A DNA stretch of 64,000 nt. Origin: Calothrix brevissima NIES-22 (GTDB lineage Bacteria > Cyanobacteriota > Cyanobacteriia > Cyanobacteriales > Nostocaceae). Shown here one piece after another: positions 17,834-57,880 of this stretch. The stretch is taken from the NCBI RefSeq assembly GCF_002367995.1, contig NZ_AP018207.1:682001-746000 (forward strand), read 5' to 3'. Within the stretch, counting starts at the first letter, position 1. Each line of letters starts with the position of its first letter. The notes beneath the pieces are model-generated. The model was given only the letters and a program-made list of their open reading frames with translations, did not search any database and was not told where the DNA came from. The position numbers and the translations under genes were made by a program.

Positions 17834-18120
17834 ATGACAAATATCTCAATTGAAGGCGTCACCCTTCCTAGTGGAAAGCCTCAACACGAATCCCCAGGTG
17901 ATTGGAAGCGATACTTTAGCTTTAGTACAGACCATAAAGTTATTGGTATCCAATACCTCGTAACCGCATTTATCTTCTTTCTGGTTGGCGGTATCTTTGC
18001 AATGGTGATTCGTGGCGAATTAATTACCCCCGAATCAGACCTCATCGATCGCACAGTATATAACGGTATGTTCACCATGCACGGCACAGTGATGCTGTTT
18101 TTGTGGACATTTCCCTCTCT
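17834..18120 (+). CDS. coxA: coxA 5' segment (interrupted by a 39.8-kb element)
   Basis: The first 95 codons plus two bases of cytochrome/quinol oxidase subunit I. The segment covers the cytoplasmic start, the first helix (IQYLVTAFIFFLVGGIFAMV) and TVYNGMFTMHGTVMLFLW, with His83 as the expected low-spin haem ligand. After Ser95 the frame runs into foreign DNA and stops at 18149-18151. The missing part resumes at 57881; joining 18120 to 57881 gives FLWTFPSLVGFANYLVPL in frame, as in intact CoxA proteins, for a total of 557 aa. Start: ATG 17834 after AAAGGAC. In the integrated state no working subunit I can be made. Confidence 0.95.
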
Positions 18121-18141
18121 AGATAAACTAACAACGGACAT
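18116..18141. other. Left junction (attL) of the coxA element
   Basis: The core TCTCT is followed inside the element by AACAACGGACAT at 18130-18141. The right junction has ATGTCCCTTGTA at 57858-57869. In the excised circle these two 12-mers would face each other across the core as an imperfect inverted repeat (10 of 12 match), as expected for the two half-sites of a serine recombinase. The centre between them falls on the CT step at 18119-18120. Confidence 0.7.
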
Positions 18142-18180
18142 TTTATGCTAAACTAGTCTGACATTGAGTTTTAGAGCTTT

Positions 18181-19557
18181 ATGCGGGTCGGTTACGTTAG
18201 AGTATCGAAATTTGAACAGAGCGACGCGCTGACTCAACAAACCGCCAGAATTGAAAAAGCTGGCTGTAGCTTGATTTTTTCTGACATCGAATCTGGGCGA
18301 AGCGACAGCCGGAAAAACTTCAACAAAATGCTCGCAATGTGCCGCGAAGGACAAATCAAAGAAATCGCGATCACTCGAATCGATAGACTGGCTAGGTCTG
18401 TGATGACCATCGCTAAAACAATCGCACTACTCGAAAAGTTGAATATCAAACTTGTCATCTTAGATGCCCCTGTAGAAGATGCATCAAGCCCATTTGGGTG
18501 GTTTTCTCTCAATCAAATGGCAGGACTAGCCGAGTTTGAATCTCGGTTGTTACAGAGCAGAGTCAACCACGGATTAGAGCATTTTCGCGAACAAAACAAA
18601 GCTTATCAGCCACCGTTAGGGTTCGCTAGAGTTGACGGTAAGTATGTTCCCGATCTGACTATACATCAGCCCAGTGGAAAAACTAATTGGGCAATAGCCC
18701 AGGAAATTATTCAATATTTTTTATCTCAAAAAACTTCGCTGCGAAATACTATTCAACACTTTATCAAAGAATTCAATATTCAGTTTTCCCCTCCAGGGCT
18801 ACGTTCTTGGTTGTTGAACCCAGTATTGCGAGGTCACACTAGGTATAACGTCAAATTTAATCGCGTTAACCCCGAAAAATGGGATATTCGAGAAAATACC
18901 CATCAGCCTTTGATCTCAAAAGAAGTTTACCAACAGATTGAAACTCGGCTGAGAGAAAATCAACGCCTGTGGGGTAGGAACTTTGAGGGTGCCACACAAA
19001 CAGATATTGGCGGGCGTTTATTGTCTGGGCAAATTATCTGCGGTTCCTGCGGAGGGAAATGTTATGTCCATGATGCTAAAAGATCGATGGGATTGCGATG
19101 CAAACGTCGCCGGGTTTACGGCGAAACTGCTTGCAGCAATAGAACCGCAGTTTCACTGATAAAGGTTGTCGATGCCGTTGATGCTGCCTTAACAACAAAA
19201 GCGATCAAACTCAGGGATTATGTTGTCAGCAGCCAGCCATCGAACCAAGATACCCCAGAAATTATCGAGCTTAAATCCCGTCTTGAGGTGCTGCGAAAAC
19301 TTCCCAAAGATTCGATTATTGAAGAAGCAATCGACCGCACAGTAGTCAAGATTCAGCAACTTCAGCAACAAAACATTCAATTCGCTTTTGTTGGGGCAAG
19401 TTTGCAAAAAGAATTGATAGAAACTTTCGGCGATGATGAGTTCCTTGAGGTTATGCCAGATGAAACCAAGAAGGGTTTGTACAAAAAATTTGTCAAGGAA
19501 GTAAAAGTACTAAACGGCAATGTCATCTCCGTCTTGTTGGTTGAGATACTGCGGTAG
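18181..19557 (+). CDS. xisF: XisF-like large serine recombinase
   Basis: A 458-aa site-specific recombinase. The N-terminal resolvase domain begins MRVGYVRVSKFEQSD with the predicted nucleophile Ser9 and contains EIAITRIDRLARS near residue 62. A recombinase domain follows (PPLGFARVDGKYVPD; SWLLNPVLRGHTRYN), then a zinc-ribbon with Cys pairs (ICGSCGGKCYVHD, then GLRCKRRRVYGETACSNR) and a helical tail. This architecture equals XisF of the fdxN element, whose excision also needs XisH and XisI in Anabaena; I see neither here. It is transcribed inward from the left junction, 60 bp inside the element, and lies in line with the interrupted cox operon. Start ATG 18181. The likely role is excision of the element. 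Confidence 0.92.
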   Translation: MRVGYVRVSKFEQSDALTQQTARIEKAGCSLIFSDIESGRSDSRKNFNKMLAMCREGQIKEIAITRIDRLARSVMTIAKTIALLEKLNIKLVILDAPVEDASSPFGWFSLNQMAGLAEFESRLLQSRVNHGLEHFREQNKAYQPPLGFARVDGKYVPDLTIHQPSGKTNWAIAQEIIQYFLSQKTSLRNTIQHFIKEFNIQFSPPGLRSWLLNPVLRGHTRYNVKFNRVNPEKWDIRENTHQPLISKEVYQQIETRLRENQRLWGRNFEGATQTDIGGRLLSGQIICGSCGGKCYVHDAKRSMGLRCKRRRVYGETACSNRTAVSLIKVVDAVDAALTTKAIKLRDYVVSSQPSNQDTPEIIELKSRLEVLRKLPKDSIIEEAIDRTVVKIQQLQQQNIQFAFVGASLQKELIETFGDDEFLEVMPDETKKGLYKKFVKEVKVLNGNVISVLLVEILR

Positions 19558-19719
19558 CAACTCTGGGTTTGTCATGATCATTTTTTTTGTTGCTTTATCT
19601 ACATTCAACGGCTTCACCAAACGAAATAACATAGCTAGCCTGAGCAGTTCTTCAGATAGAGTTTCGTTCTTCCTGGGAATGTAGCGAGACACATCAAATT
19701 CGGTTTTTCTTTGCGGCAT
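19510..19719 (-). CDS. Small basic protein beside xisF, function unknown
   Basis: A 69-aa frame (MPQRKTEFDVSRYIPRK ...) with a charged, protein-like composition, converging on the recombinase and overlapping its last 48 bp. I do not recognise a family. Small basic proteins next to serine recombinases are often directionality factors, and nothing resembling xisH or xisI is present, so this is a candidate by position only. The ribosome-binding site is weak. It may also be a chance frame. Confidence 0.4.
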   Translation of the reverse strand: MPQRKTEFDVSRYIPRKNETLSEELLRLAMLFRLVKPLNVDKATKKMIMTNPELLPQYLNQQDGDDIAV

Positions 19720-20541: not shown

Positions 20542-22017
20542 GTTTCAATCCCTAATAGGGAGTAAATGAAATTTCAACCAACCTGGTATGTTCTATAGCG
20601 TGTACCGTTGCGAGTGTTTCAATCCCTAATAGGGAGTAAATGAAATTTCAACTTGCTTTGCCAAGTTTAGCTGAGACTACTACTGCAACTGTTTCAATCC
20701 CTAATAGGGAGTAAATGAAATTTCAACTCTGGCGCTTATATTCGTGCCCGTGGTTCTACTACGTTTCAATCCCTAATAGGGAGTAAATGAAATTTCAACT
20801 TCTGATACTGTCTGTGGTCTTGCTTCTGGCGTGTTTCAATCCCTAATAGGGAGTAAATGAAATTTCAACTTAGCATTGCGTAATCTGGATTTTTGCATGG
20901 TTTTGTTTCAATCCCTAATAGGGAGTAAATGAAATTTCAACCCAGTTTGGGAAACTGTGCAGGGGGCTTTTGATTCTGTTTCAATCCCTAATAGGGAGTA
21001 AATGAAATTTCAACACAAATGACTCAATATCGATTGAAGACTGCAACGTTTCAATCCCTAATAGGGAGTAAATGAAATTTCAACTGTCCTACGCCAATCA
21101 ATGGATTTACTTCCTGCCAGTTTCAATCCCTAATAGGGAGTAAATGAAATTTCAACATATTAGCAGCAATGGCAGCAAGAGAATCAGTAAGTTTCAATCC
21201 CTAATAGGGAGTAAATGAAATTTCAACCTCTCCTTTGCGGGGCAACCCAGTCTCAGCAGGCGTTTCAATCCCTAATAGGGAGTAAATGAAATTTCAACGG
21301 CACAGCGCAACGCACCAACTCAGTTCCTACAGGTTTCAATCCCTAATAGGGAGTAAATGAAATTTCAACTAAAATGAGGGTATTTACATGGGCAATAAAT
21401 ATGGGTTTCAATCCCTAATAGGGAGTAAATGAAATTTCAACCCGCATTTCCTTTACTCCTGAAGTGGTCTAATGTTTCAATCCCTAATAGGGAGTAAATG
21501 AAATTTCAACCATACATGCGCCACCAACGCCATCTAAGAGTGATCGGTTTCAATCCCTAATAGGGAGTAAATGAAATTTCAACTGGTATGGCGCAAAGTG
21601 AAAACATCCGCGCTTGGGTTTCAATCCCTAATAGGGAGTAAATGAAATTTCAACTCGCAACAATCACAAAGCATGGGGTTGATGACTTTGGTTTCAATCC
21701 CTAATAGGGAGTAAATGAAATTTCAACTTACTGACTTTCCGGATAGCTCGAATTTGGCTTGTGGTTTCAATCCCTAATAGGGAGTAAATGAAATTTCAAC
21801 TTTCAAAGGCACGTAGGCGATCCATTAAATCGGCGCTGTTTCAATCCCTAATAGGGAGTAAATGAAATTTCAACGGTAAAGCATTCCTCTAAGTCGCTTT
21901 CACCTTCTGTTTCAATCCCTAATAGGGAGTAAATGAAATTTCAACCTAAACGATCCAGATAAACCTAGTACCACTACCGCGTTTCAATCCCTAATAGGGA
22001 GTAAATGAAATTTCAAC
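20542..22017 (-). CRISPR. CRISPR array B, 21 repeats of 37 bp (type I-D)
   Basis: There are 21 repeats that I read as identical and 20 spacers of 32-38 bp. In crRNA orientation (minus strand) the repeat begins GTTGAAATTTCATTTACTCC and ends CTATTAGGGATTGAAAC, with stem TCCCTA/TAGGGA and an 8-nt handle ATTGAAAC. The leader must lie between 22018 and the cas2 end at 22231. Complete repeat identity from end to end contrasts with the variant blocks of array A and suggests a younger or well-maintained array. The array lies directly downstream of cas2 of the I-D operon in the same direction and wholly inside the coxA element. Confidence 0.97.
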
Positions 22018-22230
22018 TGCGGAAGCTTGAAAGTTAATCTATATGCAGTTTTCAAGGTTCTGGAGCGCGGATAGCGCCATAATAACATAAGCAATAGTAA
22101 AAATGCAAAACCAAAATAACTGAAAGTCTTTCTATATAAGGCGCGCGGGTGATTGGAGAACAGTGAATGCTTGAAAGCCTGAAGTAGAAATAGTTTCACC
22201 TCATTTTTGGTGAAACTATATTTTCCACAC
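22018..22230 (-). promoter_or_regulatory. Leader of CRISPR array B
   Basis: 213 bp of noncoding DNA between cas2 and the array. Close to the first repeat lies TGCAGTTTTCAAGGTTCTG (22044-22062), matching the array A leader motif with one mismatch. An AT-rich stretch read on the minus strand (TTGCTTATGTTATTATGG, about 22073-22090) could be part of a promoter. A short inverted repeat (GTTTCACC/GGTGAAAC, near 22193-22214) just after the cas2 stop may end the cas transcript. Confidence 0.65.
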
Positions 22231-22518
22231 CTACCCATCCGCGCATTCGGCAAAGAAAATAGTATCATCGGGGACTGGTTCGCCACCAATACGTTCAACC
22301 TTACCAAAGCAGCAACTACACAGAGAGTAAAAACGGATATTGTCCGTATCAGTTTTAATCAACTTATGCAAGCGCGATCGCAGTTTGGCGTATTGGGTAT
22401 CATTCAACTGACATTCAAAAATACTATACTGCACCCATTGCCCATAAGACTTGAGAATGTTATGAATCTTTGTGCGGCGCTTATCTTCGGAAATATCGTA
22501 GGATATAACAACATTCAT
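22231..22518 (-). CDS. cas2: Cas2, spacer-acquisition subunit
   Basis: A 95-aa Cas2. It starts MNVVISYDISEDKRRTKIHN with the conserved Asp after the first strand, then SYGQWVQYSIFECQL, the typical second strand and helix. Cas2 dimers bridge two Cas1 dimers and set the spacer length. The C terminus (CSCCFGKVERIGGEPVPDD) is common in cyanobacterial I-D and III-associated Cas2. It lies 22 bp after cas1 and directly before the array leader, completing the adaptation module cas4-cas1-cas2. Confidence 0.93.
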   Translation of the reverse strand: MNVVISYDISEDKRRTKIHNILKSYGQWVQYSIFECQLNDTQYAKLRSRLHKLIKTDTDNIRFYSLCSCCFGKVERIGGEPVPDDTIFFAECADG

Positions 22519-22540
22519 CGGTAATTTTCCTCTGGAGTAT

Positions 22541-23545
22541 TTACTTCAAAATCAAAGGTGGATACTTGTCAATTTCGCCCATGAGGTATTTCGCTAATAA
22601 TCGAGCTTGTAATTCAAAAGCTTCTTGATAAGTACATTTACGGCCAAATACGGGATGTTTAAATTCCGATAACTTCTTTTGTGCGTATAACTGTAAAAAT
22701 GTTTTTCGTCCCGAAGCAGTCAGAGAAACCGCACCGCTTAAGGGTTCAGAGACAAAATCAGCAGGTATCAACAAGCGTTTATTTAAAGCCGATAACACTA
22801 CCGTATCGACAACCAAAGGGCGAAATTCTTCCATTAAATCTAGTGCCAGAGATGGTCTACCATAACGTTCGCAATGCAAGTATCCTAAATATGGATCGAA
22901 GCCGACAATATTAATTGCACCTTGCACATCATGACGCAACAACGCATAGCCAAAGCTAAGTAAAGAATTCACCGGATCGGTAGGCGGACGGCGGACGCGA
23001 CCGTTAAAATCAAATTCTGGAACCCGAATTAGCTCAGAAAAACAGCCAAAGTAAGCCGCACTACCAGCACCTTCCAAGCCTCGCAGCGAATTAATCTTAT
23101 GAGTTGTGTCAATTGGTGCGATCGCCTGCTCAATGCGAGTAATATTCTTTGATAAGTCTAAATCTGTAGATTCGCGCTGTCGGCGCAGTAATATCTGCCG
23201 ATAATTTTTCAATTTACCGCGCACAAAACCCTGCACCAAGTGAATCGCCTGGGTTGATTCTCCCGCCGCTTGCCATTGCGCCTTGCGAACAAATATATTT
23301 TTAGTAACCTCTGGTTCTAAGCGTCCTAAATAACCACCAGTATGAGTCAGAAATGTTAGCGGAATATGACGCTCAAGTAATTCCGAAATTACAGCAGGTG
23401 AAACAGTAGCACGCCCTAAAACTACAACGCCATCGATTTTTAGCAAAGGTACATCTAAAATCGTCTTTTTCTCAAACTTAACATTTAGACGCTCATCTAC
23501 CTTCCCAATAAAAGCATCTTCTTGGGTAATATAAACTGTGCCCAT
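22541..23545 (-). CDS. cas1: Cas1 integrase
   Basis: A 334-aa Cas1 from ATG 23545 (GTVYITQEDAFIGKVDERLN). An N-terminal beta domain is followed by the helical catalytic domain. The expected metal ligands are visible as Glu in LRGLEGAGSAAYF, His in GYLHCERYGRPSLALDL and Asp in the same segment. The frame extends two codons further to a TTG but the ATG is conventional. Cas1 integrates spacers at the leader end. It is preceded by a 131-bp gap after cas4 that carries a small repeat-like sequence. The protein is complete, so array B should be able to grow. Confidence 0.94.
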   Translation of the reverse strand: MGTVYITQEDAFIGKVDERLNVKFEKKTILDVPLLKIDGVVVLGRATVSPAVISELLERHIPLTFLTHTGGYLGRLEPEVTKNIFVRKAQWQAAGESTQAIHLVQGFVRGKLKNYRQILLRRQRESTDLDLSKNITRIEQAIAPIDTTHKINSLRGLEGAGSAAYFGCFSELIRVPEFDFNGRVRRPPTDPVNSLLSFGYALLRHDVQGAINIVGFDPYLGYLHCERYGRPSLALDLMEEFRPLVVDTVVLSALNKRLLIPADFVSEPLSGAVSLTASGRKTFLQLYAQKKLSEFKHPVFGRKCTYQEAFELQARLLAKYLMGEIDKYPPLILK

Positions 23546-23676
23546 AATCAAATCTCAAAGTAAATTACAAACAATAGGAAAATTTGTCGGGTGTTTTATG
23601 CCGTAGGCTAACGCACCGTGAATCATTGATGGTATATCGGTGCGCTGCGCGACAACACACCCTACTCACTGTCTAA

Positions 23677-24270
23677 TTAATGTGACTCTTGATAACGCTT
23701 GACTTTATCGGTTGCTTGTGGTAAGCATGAAGGGTAAAGACTGCAACCATCACAGCGTTTTGTTTTCATCGGTATTGGCATTGCACCTGTAAATAGCAAT
23801 TGTTGAACAGCCTCAATTATTGCGATCGCACTTTGCCGCAATTCCTGAGTAATTTCTACTAACTGACGTTGATGTGAATGTGCATAATAAATGTAACCTG
23901 TGTTGATACTCTTCCCTGTCATTTCTTCCAAACACAAAGCTTGAGCGCAGACTTGCATTTCATCATTATCCCATTCACCCTTACGACCACGTTTATATTC
24001 AATTGGATAAAATGTGCCATTTTCAGCTTCAATCAAATCTGATTTGCCTATTAATTTATATTTATCAGATTTCAACCAAATTGCGCGTATTTGCCACGTA
24101 TCTTCAAGTTGTCCTTCACCAAATGTATGGACTCGTTCATGTAAACTTGTCCCTTCAATTGTGTATTGATTATCGATAAATTCTCCTGCACAAAACATCC
24201 GCCAACAGCGATGCGAACAGTAGGCATATTGATTTAATGCCGCAATAGGAATGTAATCAATTTCATTCAT
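23677..24270 (-). CDS. cas4: Cas4 exonuclease
   Basis: A 197-aa RecB-like nuclease. The N-terminal Cys motif AYCSHRCWRMF and the C-terminal KRCDGCSLYPSC together provide four or more Cys for an iron-sulphur cluster. The catalytic PD-(D/E)XK residues appear in LIGKSDLIEA and YPIEYKRGRKGEWDN, followed by the QVCAQALCLEE Gln motif. Cas4 trims prespacers and selects those with the right PAM during acquisition in I-D systems. It sits 30 bp after cas6 and ahead of cas1. The ATG at 24270 gives the full-length family start. Confidence 0.93.
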   Translation of the reverse strand: MNEIDYIPIAALNQYAYCSHRCWRMFCAGEFIDNQYTIEGTSLHERVHTFGEGQLEDTWQIRAIWLKSDKYKLIGKSDLIEAENGTFYPIEYKRGRKGEWDNDEMQVCAQALCLEEMTGKSINTGYIYYAHSHQRQLVEITQELRQSAIAIIEAVQQLLFTGAMPIPMKTKRCDGCSLYPSCLPQATDKVKRYQESH

Positions 24271-24300
24271 AATTTAATTTTAGACTTGCACAGAAATAAC

Positions 24301-25119
24301 TTATATCCGACGTACCATACCCATACCCATTGTTGTTTTTCTCCCCAACCCTGCATATAATGCAAAATCAGCTAAAGCGTTAATTTGCTTAATTGCTAAT
24401 GGTTCTACATTTCCTAAAATTCGATAGTTAATTGTGCCAAGACAACCGATAAACTTACTTTCATAGTTGCTGACAACTTCAGTATTGATATCAAAAGCAC
24501 TCGGATAAATTGATTCAATAGGAATACTAGAGATTTCCATCCCACTATACTTATTCCAACGACTAAGTAAGCTATTAAACACACATTCTTTAATGGGGAG
24601 AACTGTATCATATCCACCTTGACGGAAAGATACGGGTGTAGCAAAGCTAAAGCTTAAATTACGCTCTTTCTCTGATGCTTGTTCGTAAAGTTGTGCATAA
24701 TTACAAGCATTAGCCCAAGGTTGCTTTGATTGTGCTGTACCTTGAATTTGAGTAATATACAAATTTGCCGAACCCAAATGCCAAGGATGTTCTGGATTGA
24801 GATTTAACCACAATGGGGTTAATTTGCTAAATAAACCATCATCAAGTAAAGAAACACGCCACCAACAGGGAGTACCAGCCTCAATAGATTTTTGGTGAAT
24901 AAATTGCAACGTTTGGTAATGTGGTTTGGGTTGTCGTTGGATTTGCAATGGAGAGAGAGTAAAGGCTTTATCTGCATTCGATGAGTGTAGATATTCTCCC
25001 AAACTGGGATCTACAGAACTGATGAGAGTGAGAAATAATGCATGGAAATGTCTACCAGTCAAGAATTCTGGGTAGATGGGAGACTGGGGGACAAGATTGA
25101 GAACGAGACTATAAGGCAT
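24301..25119 (-). CDS. cas6: Cas6 crRNA-processing endoribonuclease
   Basis: A 272-aa Cas6 with two RAMP/ferredoxin halves. The early GRHFHALFLTLISS motif contains candidate catalytic or RNA-contacting His residues, and the protein ends with the glycine-rich loop YAGLGRKTTMGMGMVRRI. It should cut array B transcripts 8 nt upstream of each spacer, leaving ATTGAAAC handles. It is the only cas6 in the window, so it may also process array A transcripts, whose repeat has a similar stem and tail; that is inference. It is separated from csc1 by a gene on the other strand. Confidence 0.9.
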   Translation of the reverse strand: MPYSLVLNLVPQSPIYPEFLTGRHFHALFLTLISSVDPSLGEYLHSSNADKAFTLSPLQIQRQPKPHYQTLQFIHQKSIEAGTPCWWRVSLLDDGLFSKLTPLWLNLNPEHPWHLGSANLYITQIQGTAQSKQPWANACNYAQLYEQASEKERNLSFSFATPVSFRQGGYDTVLPIKECVFNSLLSRWNKYSGMEISSIPIESIYPSAFDINTEVVSNYESKFIGCLGTINYRILGNVEPLAIKQINALADFALYAGLGRKTTMGMGMVRRI

Positions 25120-25390
25120 TTTTTCAACTTTTTTAGACTAAGATTTGCTATAGCAATCCTATCTGAGTTGTGAAAATATTTTTTTTGATGAACCGCCTTC
25201 TCTGCGAGAGGCTTCCGCCAACGCGTAGCGTCTCGCAGAGAAGACGCCAAGTACGCCAAGGTTCAGAGAAAAAACTGAGAGTTAGCAAATTTCATAAATG
25301 ATTTAGGATTGCTATATATGCAGGTAAAACTTAAATTATGCAAATGTTACTCTACTTTTGGTAAATGTGATTACACCAGGAGAAAGACAG

Positions 25391-25801
25391 ATGAGAATTG
25401 ATGATTACAATGCAGCCAAAGCGCTGACTGACAAATTAAAGCAGAGCTTACCAATTACAGTTAAGGCTGGTAAAGAGTTTCTCAAAACATTAAAGCAAAA
25501 AGGAGAAGACGCCAATCCAGACAGAGAATTTGAAGTTGATTTTGTCGGTTATTCAGGAGATGATGGCGGGATTATGTGCGGACTAAAAGAGCCGAATAAT
25601 CCCGAAAGTAAGGAGAAATATGTTTCTTCTATTACTCACCTCAAAATTGATCCCAATCATCCCCTAGCTGCTGAAGTTCAGGCTTACCAACGTCAGCGAA
25701 TTCGCAAGTTAATGTTGCAAAATTCCAGAGGTTTTACAGCAGAGTTAATGACAATAGAGCCGACAAGAAAGAAAAAGTCTGCTAAAGGTTTCGGGAATTA
25801 A
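25391..25801 (+). CDS. Uncharacterised protein encoded opposite the I-D operon
   Basis: A 136-aa soluble protein read from ATG 25391, which has AGGAGA 7 bases upstream; the frame extends to TTG 25358. The N terminus is helical (RIDDYNAAKALTDKLKQS), the middle holds FEVDFVGYSGDDGGIMCGL and the end is strongly basic (TRKKKSAKGFGN). I do not recognise the family. It lies between csc1 and cas6 on the opposite strand, overlapping the csc1 stop by 4 bp, so it splits the minus-strand cas genes into two transcription blocks or is read through. It could be a regulator, a ribonucleoprotein accessory or a passenger. Confidence 0.6.
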   Translation: MRIDDYNAAKALTDKLKQSLPITVKAGKEFLKTLKQKGEDANPDREFEVDFVGYSGDDGGIMCGLKEPNNPESKEKYVSSITHLKIDPNHPLAAEVQAYQRQRIRKLMLQNSRGFTAELMTIEPTRKKKSAKGFGN

Positions 25802-26505: not shown

Positions 26506-26510
26506 AGCGA

Positions 26511-48942: not shown

Positions 48943-49293
48943 AAAGAAGAAATATTGAGGAAGTTTAAATTTTGGTTAAATAACTTCTCAACCTAAAATT
49001 CAGTATAAGGTTAATCTAACAATTTAGGACTTACGCAGTGTCAGATATTTTTCATGCTTTTTGTCAACGGTCAATAGTCCATAGTCCAAAAACCTGAATT
49101 TTGACCATTGACTTTTGACTTTTGACCACCCTTGTGAGGGTTTTTGTGTTCGGTGCATAAGTCCTATAATTATGCCTGATGTGAATTTGAAATCCCCCTT
49201 TCTCAATGAGGGTTTCAAGATTGGTTAAAAATCGAGGTTTTGCAACTCAATTCACATCTAGATGTAAATCCAAAATTGTTTGATGGAGAGCTG
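48943..49293. promoter_or_regulatory. Upstream region of the FMN monooxygenase gene
   Basis: 350 bp. A TTGACCATTGACTTTTGAC-type repeat lies at about 49100. GCCTGATGTGAATT at 49174-49187, AGGGTTTCAAG at 49209-49219 and TTCACATCTAGATGTAA from 49251 recur in the same order at 51923-52050 upstream of ssuC, with an identical 35-bp offset between the first two. This looks like a duplicated promoter or leader. Confidence 0.5.
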
Positions 49294-50628
49294 ATGAGCA
49301 AAGCAAAGCAATTGAAACTGGGTGCGTTTATGCGCCCTGTAAGTATACATACTGGCGCTTGGCGTTATCCTGGGGCTTTGCCTGATGCCAATTTCAACTT
49401 CCCAGCACTGAAAAAATTCATCCAGAAACTAGAACAGGGCAAGTTTGACGCATTTTTTATGGCAGATCACTTGGCGCTGCTGAATATGCCGATTAACGCC
49501 CTCAAGCGCAGCCACACAATTACTTCCTTTGAGCCTTTCACTCTGCTTTCTGCCCTCGCCAGTGTTACCGAACACATCGGTCTAGTAGCCACAGCTTCCA
49601 CCACCTATGACGCGCCTTTCCATATTGCTCGTCGCTTTGCGTCTCTCGATCATATTAGTGGCGGTCGTGCCGGCTGGAATATTGTTACCACATCCAATCC
49701 AGATGCAGCACTCAACTTCGGCTTAACAGAAGATATAGAGCATGACGAACGCTACAAGCGGGCTAGGGAATTCTACGATGTCGTCACTGGTCTTTGGGAT
49801 TCTTTCGCTGACGATGCGTTTGTTCGGGACGTAGAATCAGGGATTTATTTCGATCCCGAAAAAGTTCATGTTTTGGCGCATCAAGGAAAATACCTCTCGG
49901 TACGGGGGCCATTGAACATTGCTAGACCTGTCCAAGGTTGGCCTGTGATTGTTCAGGCGGGTGCTTCCGATGCTGGGCGACAATTAGCCGCCGAAACTGC
50001 TGAGGTCGTATTTGCTCCGGCTGGTAATCTGGAAGCAGGTAAGGCTTTATTTGCTGATATTAAGGGACGAGCGCAGTTGATTGGCCGTGACCCAGACAGC
50101 ATCAAAATTCTTCCTGGTGCTTTGGTAATAGTGGGCGAAACTGTGGAAGAGGCGATCGCTAAACGTGCCCATTTGGATAGTCTAGTACACTATGACAGTG
50201 GAATTGCTAGCTTGAATAGTGCCCTTGGCTACGATGTTTCTGGTTACGATCCAGATGGCCCCTTGCCAGAAATCCCTGAGACTAACGCTGGTAAAAGCTC
50301 ACGCGAACGAGTTATAGCCTTGGCTGAACGTGAGAAGCTAACTATTCGGCAGTTAGCGCAACTTATCGGTAGTTATGGCGGATTAGCCTTCGTTGGTACG
50401 CCCCAAACCATCGCTGATGAGATGGAGCAATGGTTGAATGAGGAAGGGTCTGACGGCTTCAACATCATGTTTCCTTTTTTACCTGAAGGGTTAAATGATT
50501 TCATAGACAAGGTTGTGCCAGAACTCCAACGGCGGGGAATCTTCCGCAAAGAATATGAAGGGAAAACTCTACGGGAAAATCTGGGACTTGTCCGCCCTGC
50601 TAACCGCTTTTTCGAGTCTAAGTCATGA
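49294..50628 (+). CDS. FMN-dependent monooxygenase, NtaA/SnaA/DszA family (copy 1)
   Basis: A 444-aa bacterial-luciferase-like monooxygenase. Family marks include GAFMRPVSIHTGAWRYPGAL at the start, FDAFFMADHLALLN, LVATASTTYDAPFHIARRFA and GRAGWNIVTTSNPDAALNFG, then WPVIVQAGASDAGRQLAAET. These enzymes use FMNH2 from a reductase to oxidise chelators, sulfones or other substrates. With SsuABC-like transport nearby, a sulfonate or sulfone substrate is likely. Start ATG 49294 because GGAGAG lies 4 bases upstream; the frame extends to TTG 49240. No flavin reductase is visible in the window. A paralogue lies at 54987. Confidence 0.9.
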   Translation: MSKAKQLKLGAFMRPVSIHTGAWRYPGALPDANFNFPALKKFIQKLEQGKFDAFFMADHLALLNMPINALKRSHTITSFEPFTLLSALASVTEHIGLVATASTTYDAPFHIARRFASLDHISGGRAGWNIVTTSNPDAALNFGLTEDIEHDERYKRAREFYDVVTGLWDSFADDAFVRDVESGIYFDPEKVHVLAHQGKYLSVRGPLNIARPVQGWPVIVQAGASDAGRQLAAETAEVVFAPAGNLEAGKALFADIKGRAQLIGRDPDSIKILPGALVIVGETVEEAIAKRAHLDSLVHYDSGIASLNSALGYDVSGYDPDGPLPEIPETNAGKSSRERVIALAEREKLTIRQLAQLIGSYGGLAFVGTPQTIADEMEQWLNEEGSDGFNIMFPFLPEGLNDFIDKVVPELQRRGIFRKEYEGKTLRENLGLVRPANRFFESKS

Positions 50629-50696
50629 TTTTATCCCTCAGCTTGCCTCTAAATATCAATTGTCAAAAACATTATTAGCCTTCATAGGAGGATACA

Positions 50697-51329
50697 TTGT
50701 CATCTACATCGCTTCTTCTCTATGTCGATTCCCAGTACGCTAGCCCCTATGCGCTCTCGGCTTTCGTATCTCTGCATGAAAAAGCACTAGCATTCGATAT
50801 CCAAACTCTTGATTTAGCTGCTAATGTCCAAAACGAGCCAGATTTTGCAGCTAAGTCATTAACACGGCGCGTACCAACTTTGATTCATGACGGATTCGCC
50901 TTGTCTGAATCCTCTGCGATCGCAGAATACATCGATGAGGTGTTTCCCGGTACTCCTTTATACCCAAAAGAACCACAGAATCGAGCTAGAGCGCGTCAGG
51001 TACAAGCATGGCTCCGTAGCGACCTCACACCCATCAAACAAGAACGCTCGACTGAGGTGATTTTCTACGGAGTCAAAAAGCCACCGCTTTCTTTGGAAGC
51101 AAAAAAAGCTGCTGAGAAATTATTCTCTGCTGCTGAATTACTGCTTGCTAGCAACACCGAAAACCTATTCGGTCAATGGTCTATTGCTGATGTGGATTTG
51201 GCCTTAATACTCCATCGCCTAATTCTCAACGGCGATCCAGTACCCGATAAATTGGTAGCTTACGCCAAGCATCAATGGGAAAGGCCATCTGTTCAGCTAT
51301 GGGTCAATCAACAACGCCCACCACTGTAA
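50697..51329 (+). CDS. Glutathione S-transferase family protein
   Basis: A 210-aa GST. The N-terminal thioredoxin-like domain starts STSLLLYVDSQYASPYALSA and has RRVPTLIHDGFALSESSAIA with the cis-Pro and Ser-Glu glutathione contacts. The C-terminal helical domain follows, with LFGQWSIADVDLALILHRL. The start is TTG 50697, supported by AGGAGG 5 bases upstream. It resembles YfcF-type GSTs. In the organosulfur island it may handle thioether or electrophilic intermediates. It follows the monooxygenase by 68 bp. Confidence 0.85.
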   Translation: MSSTSLLLYVDSQYASPYALSAFVSLHEKALAFDIQTLDLAANVQNEPDFAAKSLTRRVPTLIHDGFALSESSAIAEYIDEVFPGTPLYPKEPQNRARARQVQAWLRSDLTPIKQERSTEVIFYGVKKPPLSLEAKKAAEKLFSAAELLLASNTENLFGQWSIADVDLALILHRLILNGDPVPDKLVAYAKHQWERPSVQLWVNQQRPPL

Positions 51330-51371
51330 ATCAATTTTAGATTTTCCCCACGATATTTAAAGATAAAAATA

Positions 51372-51738
51372 ATGATTAAGAGTCCAGAGAAACTTGCAGA
51401 TAACACCTTCCAGTTTACGACCCCTGTAAAAGCTAACTCGCCGGAACTCCAGCAGCTTTTTGATTTTATTGCTCTGGGTGCTTCGGAACGTGATCGCGAT
51501 CGCATTTTGCCTTTTGATATTATCGACCTGCTCAGGCGATCGCGCTTGGGTGCATTGCGAGTCCCTGTAGCTGAAGGTGGCGGTGGTAGCAGTTTACGCG
51601 AACTGTTTGAAGTCATAATTCGCCTGGGAGATGCTGATCCCAACCCTATCTTCCCACAATCCAGCTGCTTTCAAAGCGCGTGCGATCGGCAACTACGAAA
51701 TCAACGGTACACCTCTACCCACAGGAGCCTTTTTCTAG
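51372..51738 (+). pseudogene. Internally deleted SfnB/DszC-like gene
   Basis: Starts MIKSPEKLADNTFQFTTPVK and is homologous to residues 1-95 of the intact flavoprotein. After GDADPN it jumps to the last 28 residues (SHNPAAFKARAIGNYEING, then GAFF) in another frame, ending at TAG 51736-51738. About 290 codons are missing. The first frame itself runs on to 51836 but as nonsense. It is the third damaged copy of this gene in the island. Confidence 0.88.
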
Positions 51739-52073
51739 ACTCTGATGTGAGCGATCGCACAACAGGGGCAGAAAAATCAATGCCCAATGCCCAATGCCCA
51801 TTTTCTAAAAGCTTACTGATTGTTACAACAAATTGACAACTTGTGGAAAATTTGGGAGCATAAACTACGGTATATCGGTAGATGATTGGTAGTATGCAAA
51901 ATATTTGGGGATTGTAATTTACGCCTGATGTGAATTAAAAACGCCTGTTTCGCCATAAGGGTTTCAAGCCTTGTGAAAAATCCTGGTTTTGGAACTATCT
52001 AGAAATTACAAGGTTTTCGTCCTCATTTCACATTAGAGGTAATCCAAAATCTAAAATCCAAAATGGTATCACC
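51739..52073. promoter_or_regulatory. Control region of the ssuCBA-like operon
   Basis: 335 bp. It contains TTGGGAGCATAAACT at 51852-51866, the island box TCGGTAG-N7-GTAGTA at 51875-51894 and the duplicated module beginning GCCTGATGTGAATT at 51923-51936. The operon begins at GTG 52074. The first two signals are shared with the tauD/MFS region, the third with the monooxygenase region at 49174. Confidence 0.55.
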
Positions 52074-52952
52074 GTGAGTGCTTTTGATTCTAGCGGGATT
52101 CAACTACAGACAGAATTATCTAACCAAACTCTAGAACTTGTCGATCTCAGTGCCAGAACACAGCGATCGCCTTGGCATGAAGCTTGGGATTTGTGGCGCG
52201 GGCGACTAATTAGAGTAGCTAGTCCAGTATCGATTATCATCCTTTGGCAGTTGGTTTCGATGTTCGGCGTTATCCCAGTAGAGATACTGCCATCTCCGAC
52301 GGATATTTTAGCGGCATTTGCAGAGTTAATCAGACTCGGTGAACTACAAGAAGCACTGCCAACTTCATTATCGCGATCGCTCACAGGGTTGACTATAGGC
52401 GGCAGTATCGGTCTAATTTTGGGTTTATTTGCAGGTTTGTGGCGAATTGGCGAAGAAATTTTCGATGCACCACTGCAAATGCTGCGGACAATTCCATTTA
52501 TCGCCCTTGTACCATTGTTTATCACCTGGTTTGGCATTGATGAGACAGCCAAGATTATTGTGATTACTGTTGCTACTATATTTCCTATTTATCTGAATAC
52601 CTATGCAGGGGTTCGCGGTGTCGATCCCAAACTCTTAGAAGCTGCCACTGTTTTTGGACTTTCGCGCCAGGAGACAGTACGCCACGTTATTATGCCGATG
52701 GCGTTACCTTCTATTCTGATTGGTTTGCGCTTCTCTGCGGGTACATCATTACTAGCGTTAGTTGTAGCCGAACAAATCAATGCGCGATCGGGTATTGGCT
52801 ATATCCTCAACAATGCCAACGCTAACCAACGCTCTGACATCATTATTGCTGGCATCATCGTCTATGCAGTACTGGGAATTACCAATGATGTAGTGATGCG
52901 TCTGATTGAGCATCTAGCTCTACCTTGGAGGCCGAACATTGTCCTTAGTTAA
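52074..52952 (+). CDS. ssuC: Sulfonate-type ABC transporter permease
   Basis: A 292-aa permease of the SsuC/TauC/NrtB type. The N terminus is polar; then come helices such as VASPVSIIILWQLVSMFGVI, GLTIGGSIGLILGLFAGLW and IIVITVATIFPIYLNTYAGV. The EAA-type coupling loop is visible at LLEAATVFGLSRQETVRHVI, followed by PMALPSILIGLRFSAGTSLL. It probably forms dimers with SsuB in the inner membrane. GTG 52074 is the only good start. It overlaps the ATPase gene by 14 bp. Confidence 0.9.
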   Translation: MSAFDSSGIQLQTELSNQTLELVDLSARTQRSPWHEAWDLWRGRLIRVASPVSIIILWQLVSMFGVIPVEILPSPTDILAAFAELIRLGELQEALPTSLSRSLTGLTIGGSIGLILGLFAGLWRIGEEIFDAPLQMLRTIPFIALVPLFITWFGIDETAKIIVITVATIFPIYLNTYAGVRGVDPKLLEAATVFGLSRQETVRHVIMPMALPSILIGLRFSAGTSLLALVVAEQINARSGIGYILNNANANQRSDIIIAGIIVYAVLGITNDVVMRLIEHLALPWRPNIVLS

Positions 52953-53736
52953 TCACACACCATCCCAAACTACTACTTTGCACGCGGTGGAACTCACCCA
53001 AGTCCGCCGAATCTTTGGTAAACGGGCTGTTCTTGACGGTATCGATTTGAAAATCTGCCAAGCCGAATTTGTAGCGGTGCTTGGCCCTTCTGGTACTGGT
53101 AAAACTACACTCCTACGTCTATTATCTGGTCTTGACCGCACTGATAGCGGCTCAGTACGAGTAGCAGCTAACCGTTCAGTTGTGTTTCAAGAACCCCGGC
53201 TAGTTTTCGCCAAGCGAGTCTGGGAAAATGTCGTATTGGGACGCAAAGGAATTGGTGCAAGGCGAGAAGCATTGATAGCTTTAGAAGAAGTTGGACTCGC
53301 TACTCATGTTGATGCTTGGCCGAAGACTCTTTCCGGAGGAGAAGCCCAACGTGTAGCCCTTGCTAGAGCCTTAGTGAAGCAACCAAATCTACTACTACTA
53401 GATGAGCCATTCGCCAGCCTTGATGCTCTTACCCGCATCAAAATGTATGAATTGGTGGGTCAATTGTGGGAACGCCATCATCCGGCGGTTGTTCTCGTTA
53501 CCCATGATGTTGATGAAGCAATTCTGCTAGCGGATCGGATTTTGGTATTGGCACATGGCACTATCGGTCTAGATTTAACAGTGAATGTAGATAAACCACG
53601 CGATCGCGCCGATCCTGCTTTTGTCTCACTTCGCCTGCGTCTATTGGCAGAACTCGGCGTTGCTCCTGCACAACAACCAACTGAACTAATTCAAAACGCC
53701 GTCTTATCGCACGGGAGAACTCATCATGAAATTTAG
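52939..53736 (+). CDS. ssuB: Sulfonate-type ABC transporter ATPase
   Basis: A 265-aa ABC ATPase. Walker A is GPSGTGKTTLLRLLSGL (near residue 50), the Q-loop is VVFQEPRL, the signature is LSGGEAQRVALARAL, Walker B is LLLLDEPFASLD and the H-loop is VLVTHDVDEA. The start is TTG 52939, supported by GGAGG 7 bases upstream and the overlap with ssuC. It energises import with SsuC and the lipoprotein SsuA that follows after an 11-bp overlap. Confidence 0.92.
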   Translation: MSLVNHTPSQTTTLHAVELTQVRRIFGKRAVLDGIDLKICQAEFVAVLGPSGTGKTTLLRLLSGLDRTDSGSVRVAANRSVVFQEPRLVFAKRVWENVVLGRKGIGARREALIALEEVGLATHVDAWPKTLSGGEAQRVALARALVKQPNLLLLDEPFASLDALTRIKMYELVGQLWERHHPAVVLVTHDVDEAILLADRILVLAHGTIGLDLTVNVDKPRDRADPAFVSLRLRLLAELGVAPAQQPTELIQNAVLSHGRTHHEI

Positions 53737-54790
53737 TCGGCGAGATGTTCTCGTATCTTTGGGTGTATTAACTGCGGGAGCGATCGTTAGCTGCCGTGAC
53801 CTGAAAAAAAGTGAAAATGGTAAAACTTCAGTCACAGCTGCGCCTGTGAGTGCTAGCAATGGGCGAGTCAAGCTCATCGTCGGACAACAGGATAACGCTT
53901 TACAAGAAACCGTTGCCGCCTCTGGAGTGCTAGAAGGATTACCCTACGATTTACAATGGGCGGTGATTCCCGGCCCCGCAGCCCAGTTAGCTGCACTTTA
54001 TTCCAAAGCGATCGATGTTGGTTTGGTGGGTGATACTTCGCTGATTGTCGAACAAGGGCGTGCCAAAACCGATTGGACAGAAGCAACAGCCCCACTGCAA
54101 AACGTCGCCTATCGCAAGAACCCCGATCCAGCATATCGAGCAACCATCACCGCAGTCCGCAACAGTGCCAATATCAAAACCCTGGCAGATTTGCGAGGTA
54201 AGAAATGGGCTTCTAATTTTGGTGGTATCAATTATTTCATGTACGTATTATCACGAATTGAAGCGGGATTGAAGCCCAAAGATGTGGATTATGTAGAACT
54301 CGTTGATGGCGCTGCGGCTGGTGCTGCCTTTAAAGCCGGTCGTGCTGATGTGTTTTCGGGAAGCGTCGGCACGATTAAGGAAGCTCTAGATAGTGGTGAT
54401 GCGCGGATTTTGCTTTATGCAGAAGATTTGGGAATGCTGGCGGCTGGTGCTTTTACAGCCCGTACCGATGTGATTCGCGATCCAGATAAGAGCAAAGCAC
54501 TGGCTGATTTCTTCGAGCGAGTCCGCAAACACTACGATTGGTACGCTAAAAATCTTGATGTCGTAGAAAAGATTTACGTTGAGAAACGCAAGCAGAAGCC
54601 CAAGTTAGCAAAATATTTCGCAGCGCAAAGCTTTGGTGCATTTGTTCCCATTGATGACGATGTTGTGAAGCGTCAGCAGCGTCTTGCCGATAGATTATTT
54701 GACGCGGGAGAGATTCCGAAAAAAATCGATGTCAATGTTCATAACAACCGACAGTTTAATTCGGCAGCGATCGCATCTAGCAGCAAGTAA
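53726..54790 (+). CDS. ssuA: Sulfonate-type ABC substrate-binding lipoprotein
   Basis: A 354-aa binding protein. The N terminus has a twin-arginine motif (SRRDVLVSLGVLTAG) and the lipobox IVSC, so it is likely a Tat-exported lipoprotein. The binding fold shows VKLIVGQQDNALQETVAASG, QLAALYSKAIDVGLVGDTSL and LADLRGKKWASNFGG. It should deliver sulfonate-like ligands to SsuBC. It overlaps ssuB. The ligand cannot be predicted from sequence. A strong 23-bp palindrome follows 60 bp downstream. Confidence 0.9.
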   Translation: MKFSRRDVLVSLGVLTAGAIVSCRDLKKSENGKTSVTAAPVSASNGRVKLIVGQQDNALQETVAASGVLEGLPYDLQWAVIPGPAAQLAALYSKAIDVGLVGDTSLIVEQGRAKTDWTEATAPLQNVAYRKNPDPAYRATITAVRNSANIKTLADLRGKKWASNFGGINYFMYVLSRIEAGLKPKDVDYVELVDGAAAGAAFKAGRADVFSGSVGTIKEALDSGDARILLYAEDLGMLAAGAFTARTDVIRDPDKSKALADFFERVRKHYDWYAKNLDVVEKIYVEKRKQKPKLAKYFAAQSFGAFVPIDDDVVKRQQRLADRLFDAGEIPKKIDVNVHNNRQFNSAAIASSSK

Positions 54791-54849
54791 TTATTAATTC
54801 GTAATTCGTAATTTGGGGACATCCAATTTTTTAAATACCCAATAAATTT

Positions 54850-54905
54850 GTAGTGCGAGCATCTTGCTCGCTGATGTTCCAAAGCGAGCAAGATGCTCGC
54901 ACTAC
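54850..54905. terminator. Strong hairpin after the ssuCBA-like operon
   Basis: Perfect 23-bp arms (GTAGTGCGAGCATCTTGCTC and so on) separated by 10 nt. No T-run follows immediately, so it could be a processed-RNA stabiliser or a dispersed repeat as well as a terminator. Bases 54791-54849 contain two TAATTCG heptamers. Confidence 0.55.
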
Positions 54906-54986
54906 GGAATATGGGTAATTTATTTTTTGTAAGTCCCTTGGGAAATCTTCATCCTTCCTCCTGCCTTTCTTCAGGGAATCTAGACA

Positions 54987-56333
54987 ATGACTAATCGTCG
55001 CCAACTACACCTTAATCTGCTATTCAATAACGCTGGTAACTATAGCTCGGCTTGGCGCTGGCCTGATAGCGATCCGGGTGCTTTTATAGATGTACAATAT
55101 TATGTCCGCACGGCCAAGCTTTGCGAGCGGGGAACTTTTGATGCGGTTTTTTTAGCGGATCATCCGGCTTTGAGTGATTATCCTGAATATCGCCCATTTC
55201 AATCATTGGAGCCGACGATCGCATTGGCAACGGTGGCGGCTGCTACTGAGCGCATTGGACTAATTGCTACAGCCTCGACTACATATAATGAACCTTTTAA
55301 TATTGCCCGTCGCTACGCCACCCTAGATCGTGTTAGTGGTGGTCGTGTTGGTTGGAATGTTGTCACTACAGCCAATCCGGAGGCTGCATATAACTTTAGT
55401 CAAACCGAAGTAGTTTCCCATAGCGACCGCTACGAAAGAGCGGCGGAATTTACGGAGATTGTCCAAGCTCTGTGGGATAGTTGGGAAGATGACGCATTTA
55501 TTGGTGATAAAGAATCTGCCCGTTTTATAGATACCTCTCGCGTCCATTCAATTAATCACAAGGGCAAGTATTTTTCTGTACAAGGGCCGTTGAACGTGCC
55601 GCGTTCGCCTCAAGGTCGGCCTGTTTTGGTACAAGCTGGTGGTTCCGATGATGGGCGAGATTTGGCGGCGAAATATGCTGAAGTCATCTTTACGGCGGCT
55701 CAATCCCTACCTCAGGCGATTGACTACGCTAATGATTTACGCAACCGCGCCCGTAAATTTGGGCGATCGCCAGATTCCATTGTTATCTTACCCGGTCTTG
55801 TGACTGTCATCGCCAGCACTGAAGCCGAAGCTAAACGCCGCGAACAAGAACTCTGGGAACTAGTTCCGATAGAATACGGACTTGGTAGGTTGGCTAATAT
55901 ACTGCAAGTTGACCCAGATGTTTTAAAGTTGGACGAGCGTTTACCAGAGAATTTGCCGCTACCAGTAAATAGCAATCAAACTATGTTTAATGTTGCAGTT
56001 AATGTAGCTAGAAAAGGCAATTTGACTGTGCGGGAGTTAATCAAAGCTTTAGGTGGTGGTGGGACAATGCATCGCATTATTGTCGGTACACCAGAACAAG
56101 TGGCAGATTCCATTGAAGAATGGTTTCTATCGGGTGCAGTTGGTGGCTTCAACGTAGTACCTGATGTAATCGCCTCCGGCTTAGAAACATTCGTTGATTT
56201 TGTGGTTCCAGAACTACGCCGCCGAGGAATTTTCCGCACTGAGTATACTGGCCGCACTTTACGAGAGCATTATGGCTTAGAACGCCCAGAAAGCCGCTAT
56301 GCACGCGAAAAACGTCAAGCCGTTCCCGCCTAA
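54987..56333 (+). CDS. FMN-dependent monooxygenase, NtaA/SnaA/DszA family (copy 2)
   Basis: A 448-aa paralogue of the monooxygenase at 49294. The marks are LHLNLLFNNAGNYSSAWRWP, FDAVFLADHPALSDYPEYRP, LIATASTTYNEPFNIARRYA and GRVGWNVVTTANPEAAYNFS. The C terminus (FVDFVVPELRRRGIFRTEYT) matches copy 1 (VVPELQRRGIFRKEYEG). The two differ enough to act on different compounds. It follows the ssu operon and precedes the SfnB/DszC-like gene, the usual company for desulfurisation pathways. Start ATG 54987. Confidence 0.9.
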   Translation: MTNRRQLHLNLLFNNAGNYSSAWRWPDSDPGAFIDVQYYVRTAKLCERGTFDAVFLADHPALSDYPEYRPFQSLEPTIALATVAAATERIGLIATASTTYNEPFNIARRYATLDRVSGGRVGWNVVTTANPEAAYNFSQTEVVSHSDRYERAAEFTEIVQALWDSWEDDAFIGDKESARFIDTSRVHSINHKGKYFSVQGPLNVPRSPQGRPVLVQAGGSDDGRDLAAKYAEVIFTAAQSLPQAIDYANDLRNRARKFGRSPDSIVILPGLVTVIASTEAEAKRREQELWELVPIEYGLGRLANILQVDPDVLKLDERLPENLPLPVNSNQTMFNVAVNVARKGNLTVRELIKALGGGGTMHRIIVGTPEQVADSIEEWFLSGAVGGFNVVPDVIASGLETFVDFVVPELRRRGIFRTEYTGRTLREHYGLERPESRYAREKRQAVPA

Positions 56334-56469
56334 GGGACTTCCAAAATAATCAATCGCTTTGACAAGCAGGGGGAGCAGAGGAAGCATTCCCGATGAAAAA
56401 ATTTCACAACCAAACGTGAAAATCTCTCTTTCCCATGCCCAATGCCCATTTCTATCAAAGATAAACACC

Positions 56470-57708
56470 ATGATTAAGAGTCCAGAAAAAGTTTTAGATA
56501 CCACAATCCAGTTTTCCGCGCCTGTAACAGCTAATTCACCAGAGTTACAAACCCTTTTAGACTTTATTGCTTTAGGGGCTTCGGAGCGCGATCGCGATCG
56601 CATTCTTCCTTTTGATATCATCGACCTCATCCGTAGTTCCCGCTTAGGTGCATTACGCATCCCCGTTGCTGAAGGTGGTGCTGGTAGTTCAGTCCGGGAG
56701 CTATTAGAGGTTGTAATTCGCCTGGGTGATGCCGATCCTAACGTTGCTCATATTGTGCGAAATCACTTCTCAGTCACAGAAAGAATTTTGCGTTCTCAGC
56801 GTAGCGACAGGAATCGTCGATGGCTCAAAGCTGTCGTTGATGGTGCAATTATTGGACTGGCGGCGACAGAACTAGAAGCCAAACGCTCTGGTGGCGGTCA
56901 AGTCGTGAATACAAAATTAACACCCGATGGTAAGGGCTATCGTCTCAATGGTAAGAAGTATTACAGTACTGGCAGTATTTATGCAGATTTAATTTTCGTG
57001 CGGGTGTTAGCAGCAGATGAAACGAATGCATTCATCCTCATTCCGCTAAACCGTGAGGGAATAGAGCTTGTAGACGACTGGGACGGTTTCGGACAAAGGT
57101 TAACAGGTACAGGCACGACTACCTTCACCAATGTTCGTGTCGAAGCTGATGAAGTCATATTAGAGACAGATACAGATAGAGACAACTTACCTTACAATAT
57201 CGTCCCGCAATTATTCCTAACGGCAGTGAACGCAGGGATTATTCGCAGTGTATTGCGCGATGCCATCAATCTCATCCACAAACGCCCCAGAACCTTCTAC
57301 CATGCCGTAGCCGAGCAAGCAGCAGATGACCCACTCTTGCAGCAAACCGTCGGTCAAATCTCCGCCAACGCCTTTGCCGCCGAAGCGATCGTCCTAGCCG
57401 CCGCCGATGCTCTAGATCGCCTTGCTATTGCCAAAACCCAAGGTGAAGAGGCAGAAACAGCAGCAGCGCTAGCCGCTTCTTTAAGTGCCTCCAAAGCCAA
57501 ATTAATTGTCGATGACTTAGCACTACGTTCAGCCACTCTATTATTTGAAGTTGGTGGAGCTTCCACAACCAAAAAAAGCTCAAATTTAGATCGTCATTGG
57601 CGCAATGCTCGCACCTTAGCATCCCACAACCCCAGTCATTTTAAAGCCCGCGCCATTGGCGACTACGAAATCAACAACAAACCACTGCCAACCAGAGGAT
57701 TTTTCTAA
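56470..57708 (+). CDS. SfnB/DszC-like acyl-CoA-dehydrogenase-fold monooxygenase
   Basis: A 412-aa flavoprotein from ATG 56470 (MIKSPEKVLDTTIQFSAPVT), the same start as in the damaged copy at 51372; the frame extends to TTG 56359. Blocks include NVAHIVRNHFSVTERILRSQ, GLAATELEAKRSGGGQVVNT, GYRLNGKKYYSTGSIYADLI and GGASTTKKSSNLDRHWRNAR. SfnB/DszC-type enzymes use reduced flavin to oxidise sulfones or dibenzothiophene-like thioethers. It is the only complete copy of four in the island and the last gene before the right junction. Confidence 0.9.
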   Translation: MIKSPEKVLDTTIQFSAPVTANSPELQTLLDFIALGASERDRDRILPFDIIDLIRSSRLGALRIPVAEGGAGSSVRELLEVVIRLGDADPNVAHIVRNHFSVTERILRSQRSDRNRRWLKAVVDGAIIGLAATELEAKRSGGGQVVNTKLTPDGKGYRLNGKKYYSTGSIYADLIFVRVLAADETNAFILIPLNREGIELVDDWDGFGQRLTGTGTTTFTNVRVEADEVILETDTDRDNLPYNIVPQLFLTAVNAGIIRSVLRDAINLIHKRPRTFYHAVAEQAADDPLLQQTVGQISANAFAAEAIVLAAADALDRLAIAKTQGEEAETAAALAASLSASKAKLIVDDLALRSATLLFEVGGASTTKKSSNLDRHWRNARTLASHNPSHFKARAIGDYEINNKPLPTRGFF

Positions 57709-57875
57709 AATCAGTTAACTGTTTAGATGGGCAGAGGAGACAAGGAATTTTAGATTTTAGATTTTGGATTTTAGATTTTAGATTTTAGATTCAAATACAA
57801 TCCAAAATCGCAAATCCAAAATCTAAAATTGTTTTTAATGCCCCATGCCCCATGCTTATGTCCCTTGTACGCTCA
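57709..57875. repeat. Heptamer repeats at the right end of the element
   Basis: TTTTAGA heptamers (about 57748-57790) and their complement (ATCTAAAATT near 57822) can form a hairpin; CCCATGC heptamers follow at 57841-57855. The right half-site ATGTCCCTTGTA is at 57858-57869. Confidence 0.65.
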
Positions 57876-57880
57876 TCTCT
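57858..57880. other. Right junction (attR) of the coxA element
   Basis: Element half-site ATGTCCCTTGTA at 57858-57869, six bases, then the TCTCT core at 57876-57880, after which coxA coding sequence resumes. The core is shared with 18116-18120. In the host orientation the sequence after the core is TGTAGGATTTGC, giving Leu-Val-Gly-Phe-Ala when joined to the left segment. Confidence 0.75.

Follow-up and report, generated by a model that had tools for sequence, protein, structure and literature searches.

Hilton, Meeks and Zehr reported 101 interruption elements in 28 cyanobacterial genomes in 2016, including two variants in coxA3, the gene shown in their Figure 1, and further elements in coxA2; their Table 1 counts three coxA elements in three variants, and variable cargo and differing xis orientation were already noted for some variants (PMC4874684). 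In Anabaena sp. PCC 7120, coxA3 belongs to the Qox/ARTO operon (formerly Cox3), arranged as alr2729-alr2730-coxB3-coxA3-coxC3 and expressed exclusively in heterocysts (PMC6616624). Here we describe a coxA gene split by 39,760 bp of other DNA in Calothrix brevissima NIES-22, in a 64,000-nucleotide window (NZ_AP018207.1, positions 682,001 to 746,000, forward strand; coordinates below count from the first base of this window). This DNA is very probably an interruption (excision) element of the heterocyst type, lodged in coxA3, and a recombinase of the XisF family would remove it exactly.

The genes in this part of the window are ordered DUF2231, DUF2231, coxB, coxA 5' piece, 39.76 kb of other DNA, coxA 3' piece and coxC. 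The coxA frame, starting at 17834, is interrupted after codon 95; the 5' piece (17834-18120, plus strand), which carries codons 1-95 and two bases of codon 96, matches positions 2-57 of the COX1 profile, and the 3' piece (57881-59267, plus strand), which begins with the final base of codon 96 and ends at the stop, matches positions 54-436. Unjoined, the 5' frame ends about 10 codons inside the element. With the element (18121-57880) deleted, coxA reads as one uninterrupted frame of 557 codons and a stop, with FLWTFPSLVGFANYLVPL across the 18120/57881 join. A first-pass annotation of this DNA had placed the split after codon 95 with resumption 39.76 kb on, and had proposed that joining 18120 to 57881 keeps the frame with no codon lost or gained; both statements hold exactly. 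The same reading frame is found unbroken in four congeners, where FPSLVG (three genomes) or FPSLIG (G001) spans the position of the join. As read from the assembled DNA, the locus thus has the features by which interruption elements are recognized: a split gene, an exactly restored frame, a recombinase near one end, direct repeats with a shared end anatomy, and empty sites in relatives. The direct repeat, TCTCT at 18116-18120 and again at 57876-57880, would be weak evidence taken singly, since a pentamer can recur by chance, and we set it aside as an argument; the case stands because frame, empty sites and recombinase agree, not because of TCTCT.

The split gene is most simply read as coxA3 (qoxA) of a Cox3/ARTO quinol oxidase. 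It is preceded by two genes for DUF2231 membrane proteins (15667-16167 and 16164-16769; PF09990, E values of 3.9e-43 and 2.2e-39) and by coxB3 (16878-17819), and followed by coxC3 (59414-60016; PF00510, E value of 1.2e-32), all on the plus strand. Family match and alignment place coxB3 as subunit II without the CuA cysteines, reading DSQYSGTYFATM where a paralogue reads CAELCGPYHGAM, and the CuA motif (CAELCG..HG.M) is kept in three other cox clusters of this genome. The CuA-less coxB and paired DUF2231 genes recognized at first pass are therefore real and, with coxC added, fit the five-gene Cox3/ARTO operon. The genome also encodes one protein matching PF03574 (264.7 bits), which we take to be the HetR family, and from this hetR-family gene the host appears to be of the heterocyst-forming kind.

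Just inside the element, 60 bp from its left end, lies a gene for a large serine recombinase of 458 amino acids (18181-19557, plus strand) with Resolvase, Recombinase and zinc ribbon domains. Its match to the NCBIfam XisF equivalog (NF041201) reaches 526.7 bits, well above the cut-off of 375 bits, in keeping with the XisF type assigned to the protein from its translation. Seven genes of this genome exceed that cut-off, this one included. A separate XisF-family gene (7785487-7786824) sits between two pieces of another nifE of this genome (G000:C1:7779802-7787445; model positions 2-193, with one TAG within the match, and 195-459), which is probably a nifE interruption element.

We compared the locus with 8 genomes of the genus and 217 genomes of the family. 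Orthologues of the recombinase (95-97% identical, the next best match being about 50%) are present in this genome and in G002, G004 and G005, and coxA3 is split in precisely these four of the eight congeners, being uninterrupted in G001, G003, G006 and G007. At E<=1e-150, the family holds 17 such recombinase genes in 15 of 217 genomes; 11 adjoin codon 95 of coxA3 (in this genome, G002, G004, G005, G026, G027, G028, G059, G062, G065 and G194), and 6 adjoin the 3' end of a presumed nifH, identified by eye with no family search (G185, G187, G188, G063, G065 and G059; L030-L035), so that G059 and G065 carry both. One recombinase lineage thus splits a gene of respiration at the same position in four genera. 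Joining opens the frame in all 11 split genes, at full length in seven and, for the first join, in the four that have a second break. In those four (G027, G028, G065 and G194) coxA3 lies in three pieces, the second break falling near codon 254 (L043, L045, L046, L052, L053, L055, L056), and the second element of G027 is about 8 kb long with a different XisF-family gene (448.3 bits). The other coxA3 genes among the matches listed are approximately full-length open frames, save those of G020 and G153 (two adjoining frames each) and G182 (a shorter frame). That a misassembly or strain mixture joined unrelated sequence into coxA is scarcely credible: although the 2016 survey set aside seven of its own cases as likely misassemblies (PMC4874684), we found no point in its favor here, and the recurrence of an identical site, recombinase lineage and end arms in 11 genomes in effect already refutes it.

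Among the 11 coxA3 elements the recombinase lies at the left end and reads along coxA in seven, and lies at the right end facing back in four (G059, G062, G065 and G194). On a midpoint-rooted recombinase tree the reversed four group together as a clade (98/99), as do the six nifH-associated genes (100/99), and the forward seven do not resolve into a single clade; a single flip of orientation would be enough to account for this. Where the two ends lie on the same contig, element sizes range widely, from 10,323 (G028), 13,803 (G194) and 17,313 bp (G027) to 52,636 (G065), 54,740 (G062) and 55,249 bp (G002). G002 has a second, intact CuA-less cox cluster whose coxA is 86% identical (L010, G002:C1:7422000-7429000). 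In G027 a coxA paralogue of the 54-57% identical class is split near its codon 92 (L057, L058; G027:C1:6474000-6510000); its pieces lie about 33 kb from each other, and the end sequences are different ones. Similar pieces occur in G026, and G062 shows a break near codon 185.

Comparison of the left and right ends of all 11 coxA3 elements (attL/attR pairs) narrows the exchange point considerably. The stretch identical at both ends differs from element to element (TCTCT, TCACT, TCTTTAGT, TCTTTAGTTG, CTTGT and others), and what all 11 have in common is exactly two bases, at positions one and two of a Leu codon. The pentamer noted at first pass is therefore present at both junctions here but is not the repeat common to the group, which is CT in nine elements; in G002 and G004 either end has TT instead. 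These two genomes are close, and the TT is probably one event and hence weak evidence for compensating change. A second line of evidence comes from the circle site, which when rebuilt from each element has the general form GTCCsTTGTA ... CT ... TACAAsGGwC; over shifts from -6 to +6 its dyad is best centered on the shared dinucleotide in all 11 elements, uniquely so in 10, with 14 of 20 positions complementary here and a tie, at 8, in G065. In this element the left arm is AACAACGGAC (18130-18139, plus strand), TACAAsGGwC in most relatives, and its inverted partner on the right is GTCCCTTGTA (57860-57869, plus strand). Because the identity intersection and the dyad center coincide, the 2-bp overlap expected of a serine recombinase is predicted at the CT of 18119-18120, within the left TCTCT, and at the CT of 57879-57880, both on the plus strand. 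We also considered the preceding base, the third position of a Ser codon, as part of the overlap. It is the same on left and right in 10 of the 11 elements, but in G026 the left end has G where the right end has A, and we set this candidate aside; an overlap wider than the dinucleotide would be contradicted by that single genome.

These features suggest a simple course for excision. The recombinase encoded at the left end would pair both end sites, make cuts staggered by 2 bp at the central CT of each and rejoin them, which would restore an unbroken coxA3 and release a circle of 39,760 bp closed at the dyad site GTCCCTTGTA-n-CT-n-AACAACGGAC. We infer that this recombination takes place, that only differentiating heterocysts carry it out and that the oxidase so restored is active in them. 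Programmed excision in the manner of nifD, fdxN and hupL, as first suggested for this locus, is supported by the end anatomy, the empty sites, the XisF-family recombinase, the operon and the hetR-family gene. The value of the mapping is that it gives an exact, testable prediction of both the exchange dinucleotide and the circle site.

Several observations weigh against this picture of programmed excision. Neither an intact copy of the split coxA3 nor, at up to one mismatch, the circle junction is present in the assembly of this genome. A GTA-N8-TAC (NtcA-like) site is absent immediately upstream of both the operon and the recombinase gene, and although the window as a whole holds 24 such sites against 9.9 expected, we did not use them as evidence for that reason. 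XisH and XisI are required for excision of the fdxN element. No Pfam match to either was found among the 33 element proteins scanned, which come from 37 open reading frames (ORFs) of at least 100 amino acids besides the recombinase (the other four being antisense or overlapping the cas2 region, and shorter ORFs being left out); a genome-wide search for XisH placed homologues of it elsewhere in the genome. The genome has six COX1 matches, consisting of four full-length genes and the two pieces of the split coxA3. The nearest full-length paralogue (C1:7.948 Mb) is 64% identical, so no second intact coxA3 of the kind that would make the split copy a relic is present, yet that paralogue belongs to an intact cluster whose coxB likewise lacks CuA, some redundancy is therefore possible, and this second CuA-less oxidase could stand in for the split one. 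Nor does selection on coxA3 speak strongly for restoration: the ratio of nonsynonymous to synonymous divergence (dN/dS) is 0.076 for the 5' piece and 0.046 for the 3' piece among the four split genomes, compared with 0.083 and 0.042 among the four intact ones, but the insertion may be young within the genus and these low values are accordingly a weak sign of selection since insertion. The open joined frames in all 11 genomes, including the divergent elements of g8 and g18, are stronger evidence.

The extreme form of these doubts is that the insertion is dead, with excision lost, coxA3 a relic and other oxidases in its role. An assembly without the excised form, four other full-length coxA genes (one in a CuA-less cluster) and some cargo genes that look broken are what such a history would leave. 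However, this copy retains an intact recombinase, two intact arms and both pieces of coxA3 unbroken, joining yields an open frame in every one of the 11 cases (partly related by descent), and the recombinase has a dN/dS of 0.12 among the four congeners. We regard a dead insertion as distinctly improbable, and programmed excision from coxA3 as the better account of an element whose machinery and target have both been kept.

The recombinase looks younger than the host genes around it. In five wider pairs of the four split congeners its synonymous divergence (dS) is 0.07-0.19, whereas that of the coxA pieces and coxB is 0.45-1.22; in the close pair G002/G004 the values are 0.10 and 0.15-0.19. Since the flanking coxA does not share the low divergence of the recombinase, site-specific insertion is favored over replacement by homologous recombination, and the main alternative to youth is that the recombinase itself has an exceptionally low rate of synonymous change. 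DNA likeness to the elements of G002, G004 and G005 (E<=1e-20, >150 bases) stops 1.7-1.8 kb from the left end, covering the arm and the recombinase, and of 19 cargo proteins tested (from the 37 ORFs) none matches the complete 55-kb element of G002 at E<=1e-10, with one partial or distant match each in the incomplete stretches of G005 (57% over 76 residues) and G004 (29% over 274). A young recombinase with cargo that does not recur therefore appears to reflect a module that spreads laterally between strains and swaps its cargo, which supports viewing these elements as current mobile DNA and not only as ancient regulatory devices.

The association with nifH suggests how targets may change. The 12 bases before the exchange point that we place in nifH resemble the seven forward coxA3 sites at a mean of 7.6 of 12 positions (range 5-9), this point being placed solely by how far it lies from the ACAAsG arm of one side. 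The background in the nifH flanks is 3.0 of 12 (standard deviation 1.3) over 2,568 registers, the six true ones included, and 3 registers of this whole set score as high. This suggests that the recombinase lineage moved between coxA3 and nifH through a shared half-site.

Such mobility invites a further explanation, that this is an integrative mobile element excising now and then in cells of every kind, at low frequency and free of developmental control, for which a host gene unneeded in vegetative cells is simply a safe landing site. It is compatible with the same enzymology and differs in the trigger alone. The youth of the recombinase relative to host genes, the variation of cargo between genomes, the use of nifH by the same lineage and the lack of an NtcA-like site beside the recombinase all suit it, but all 17 places found here for the lineage are coxA3 or nifH, genes with roles in heterocysts, and the related nifD, fdxN and hupL elements excise during heterocyst development (PMC4874684). 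We consider this explanation unlikely, if the least easily dismissed, and retain excision during heterocyst development as the favored trigger. A bolder reading, toward which we lean only slightly, is that the recombinase and its end sites make up a recently moving homing module. Its targets would be genes that serve a terminal cell alone (coxA3 and, by half-site resemblance, nifH); it would acquire and exchange unrelated cargo tens of kilobases long, and would have turned around once with respect to the target. On this reading its cargo here is a whole type I-D CRISPR-Cas system, which heterocysts would lose from the chromosome. Mobile DNA of this sort would be tolerated where only a dead-end cell requires the target.

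The CRISPR-Cas locus occupies much of the left half of the element. An array of 21 repeats of GTTTCAATCCCTAATAGGGAGTAAATGAAATTTCAAC (20542-22018) is followed on the minus strand by a probable cas2 of 95 amino acids (22231-22518; named by eye from its translation with no family search) and by family-matched type I-D genes, namely cas1, cas4, cas6, csc1, csc2, cas10d/csc3 and cas3' (22541-34276), with a HepT/nucleotidyltransferase pair between cas10d/csc3 and cas3'. The locus as a whole (20542-34276) looks complete, and it lies inside DNA predicted to be discarded in heterocysts. If that prediction is right, excision would take this type I-D immune system out of the heterocyst chromosome, and such a loss through programmed excision becomes testable. 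Among open-licence papers we found none joining CRISPR with heterocyst interruption elements.

Farther to the right, a lone nifE lies on the strand opposite to coxA (39767-41221, minus strand; TIGR01283, 568.6 bits, cut-off 505.1), one of three genes of this genome above the nifE cut-off. The remainder (42142-57708) is metabolic cargo, mostly forward, whose family matches include an aldo/keto reductase, ABC transporter genes, two NtaA/DmoA-type (FMN) monooxygenases, a GST and an acyl-CoA dehydrogenase with pieces of another, along with an unnamed ORF on the minus strand (44841-45713); some of the cargo genes are apparently broken. No phage structural family was among the Pfam matches of the 33 scanned proteins, PHROGs not having been run.

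Comparable logic operates outside the cyanobacteria, where in the Bacillus skin (sigK) and SP-beta (spsM) elements a large serine recombinase frees a gene that a terminal cell line alone requires. The host, the gene and the kind of cell have no relation to those considered here, and both elements are prophages or prophage-like, whereas phage structural families were not among the matches in our element (for SP-beta in spsM, see PMC4191935). Closer is the fdxN element of Anabaena sp. PCC 7120 with its XisF, given that our recombinase passes the XisF equivalog cut-off; that element has another target gene, and the one described here has no XisH or XisI among its scanned proteins. The oxidase operon matches Cox3/Qox of the same strain in five-gene order and in its CuA-less subunit II, alr2729 and alr2730 being matched to the DUF2231 genes by position only (PMC6616624). 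The first-pass annotation had implied that a respiratory target was new for programmed excision. Elements in coxA2 and coxA3 were published in 2016, so interruption of coxA3 was already known and the element here is not novel in kind; the mapping of exchange to two bases, the difference in age between recombinase and host genes, and the CRISPR-Cas cargo are points not met in the portion of that survey consulted here (PMC4874684). We found no experimental report of coxA excision among open-licence papers, and the NIES genome paper makes no mention of excision, interruption, recombinase or cox (PMC8634303). The nearest counterparts are the coxA3 elements of the 2016 survey, such as that of Calothrix sp. 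PCC 7103, which likewise lie within coxA3 with a terminal xis gene and direct repeats, and for which excision in heterocysts is predicted; their insertion position may differ (PMC4874684). In PCC 7103 the xis gene is implied to lie near the end of the element and against coxA (PMC4874684), whereas here it lies at the start and runs with coxA, and the reversed, PCC 7103-like layout occurs at the present site in relatives of genera g18 and g49.

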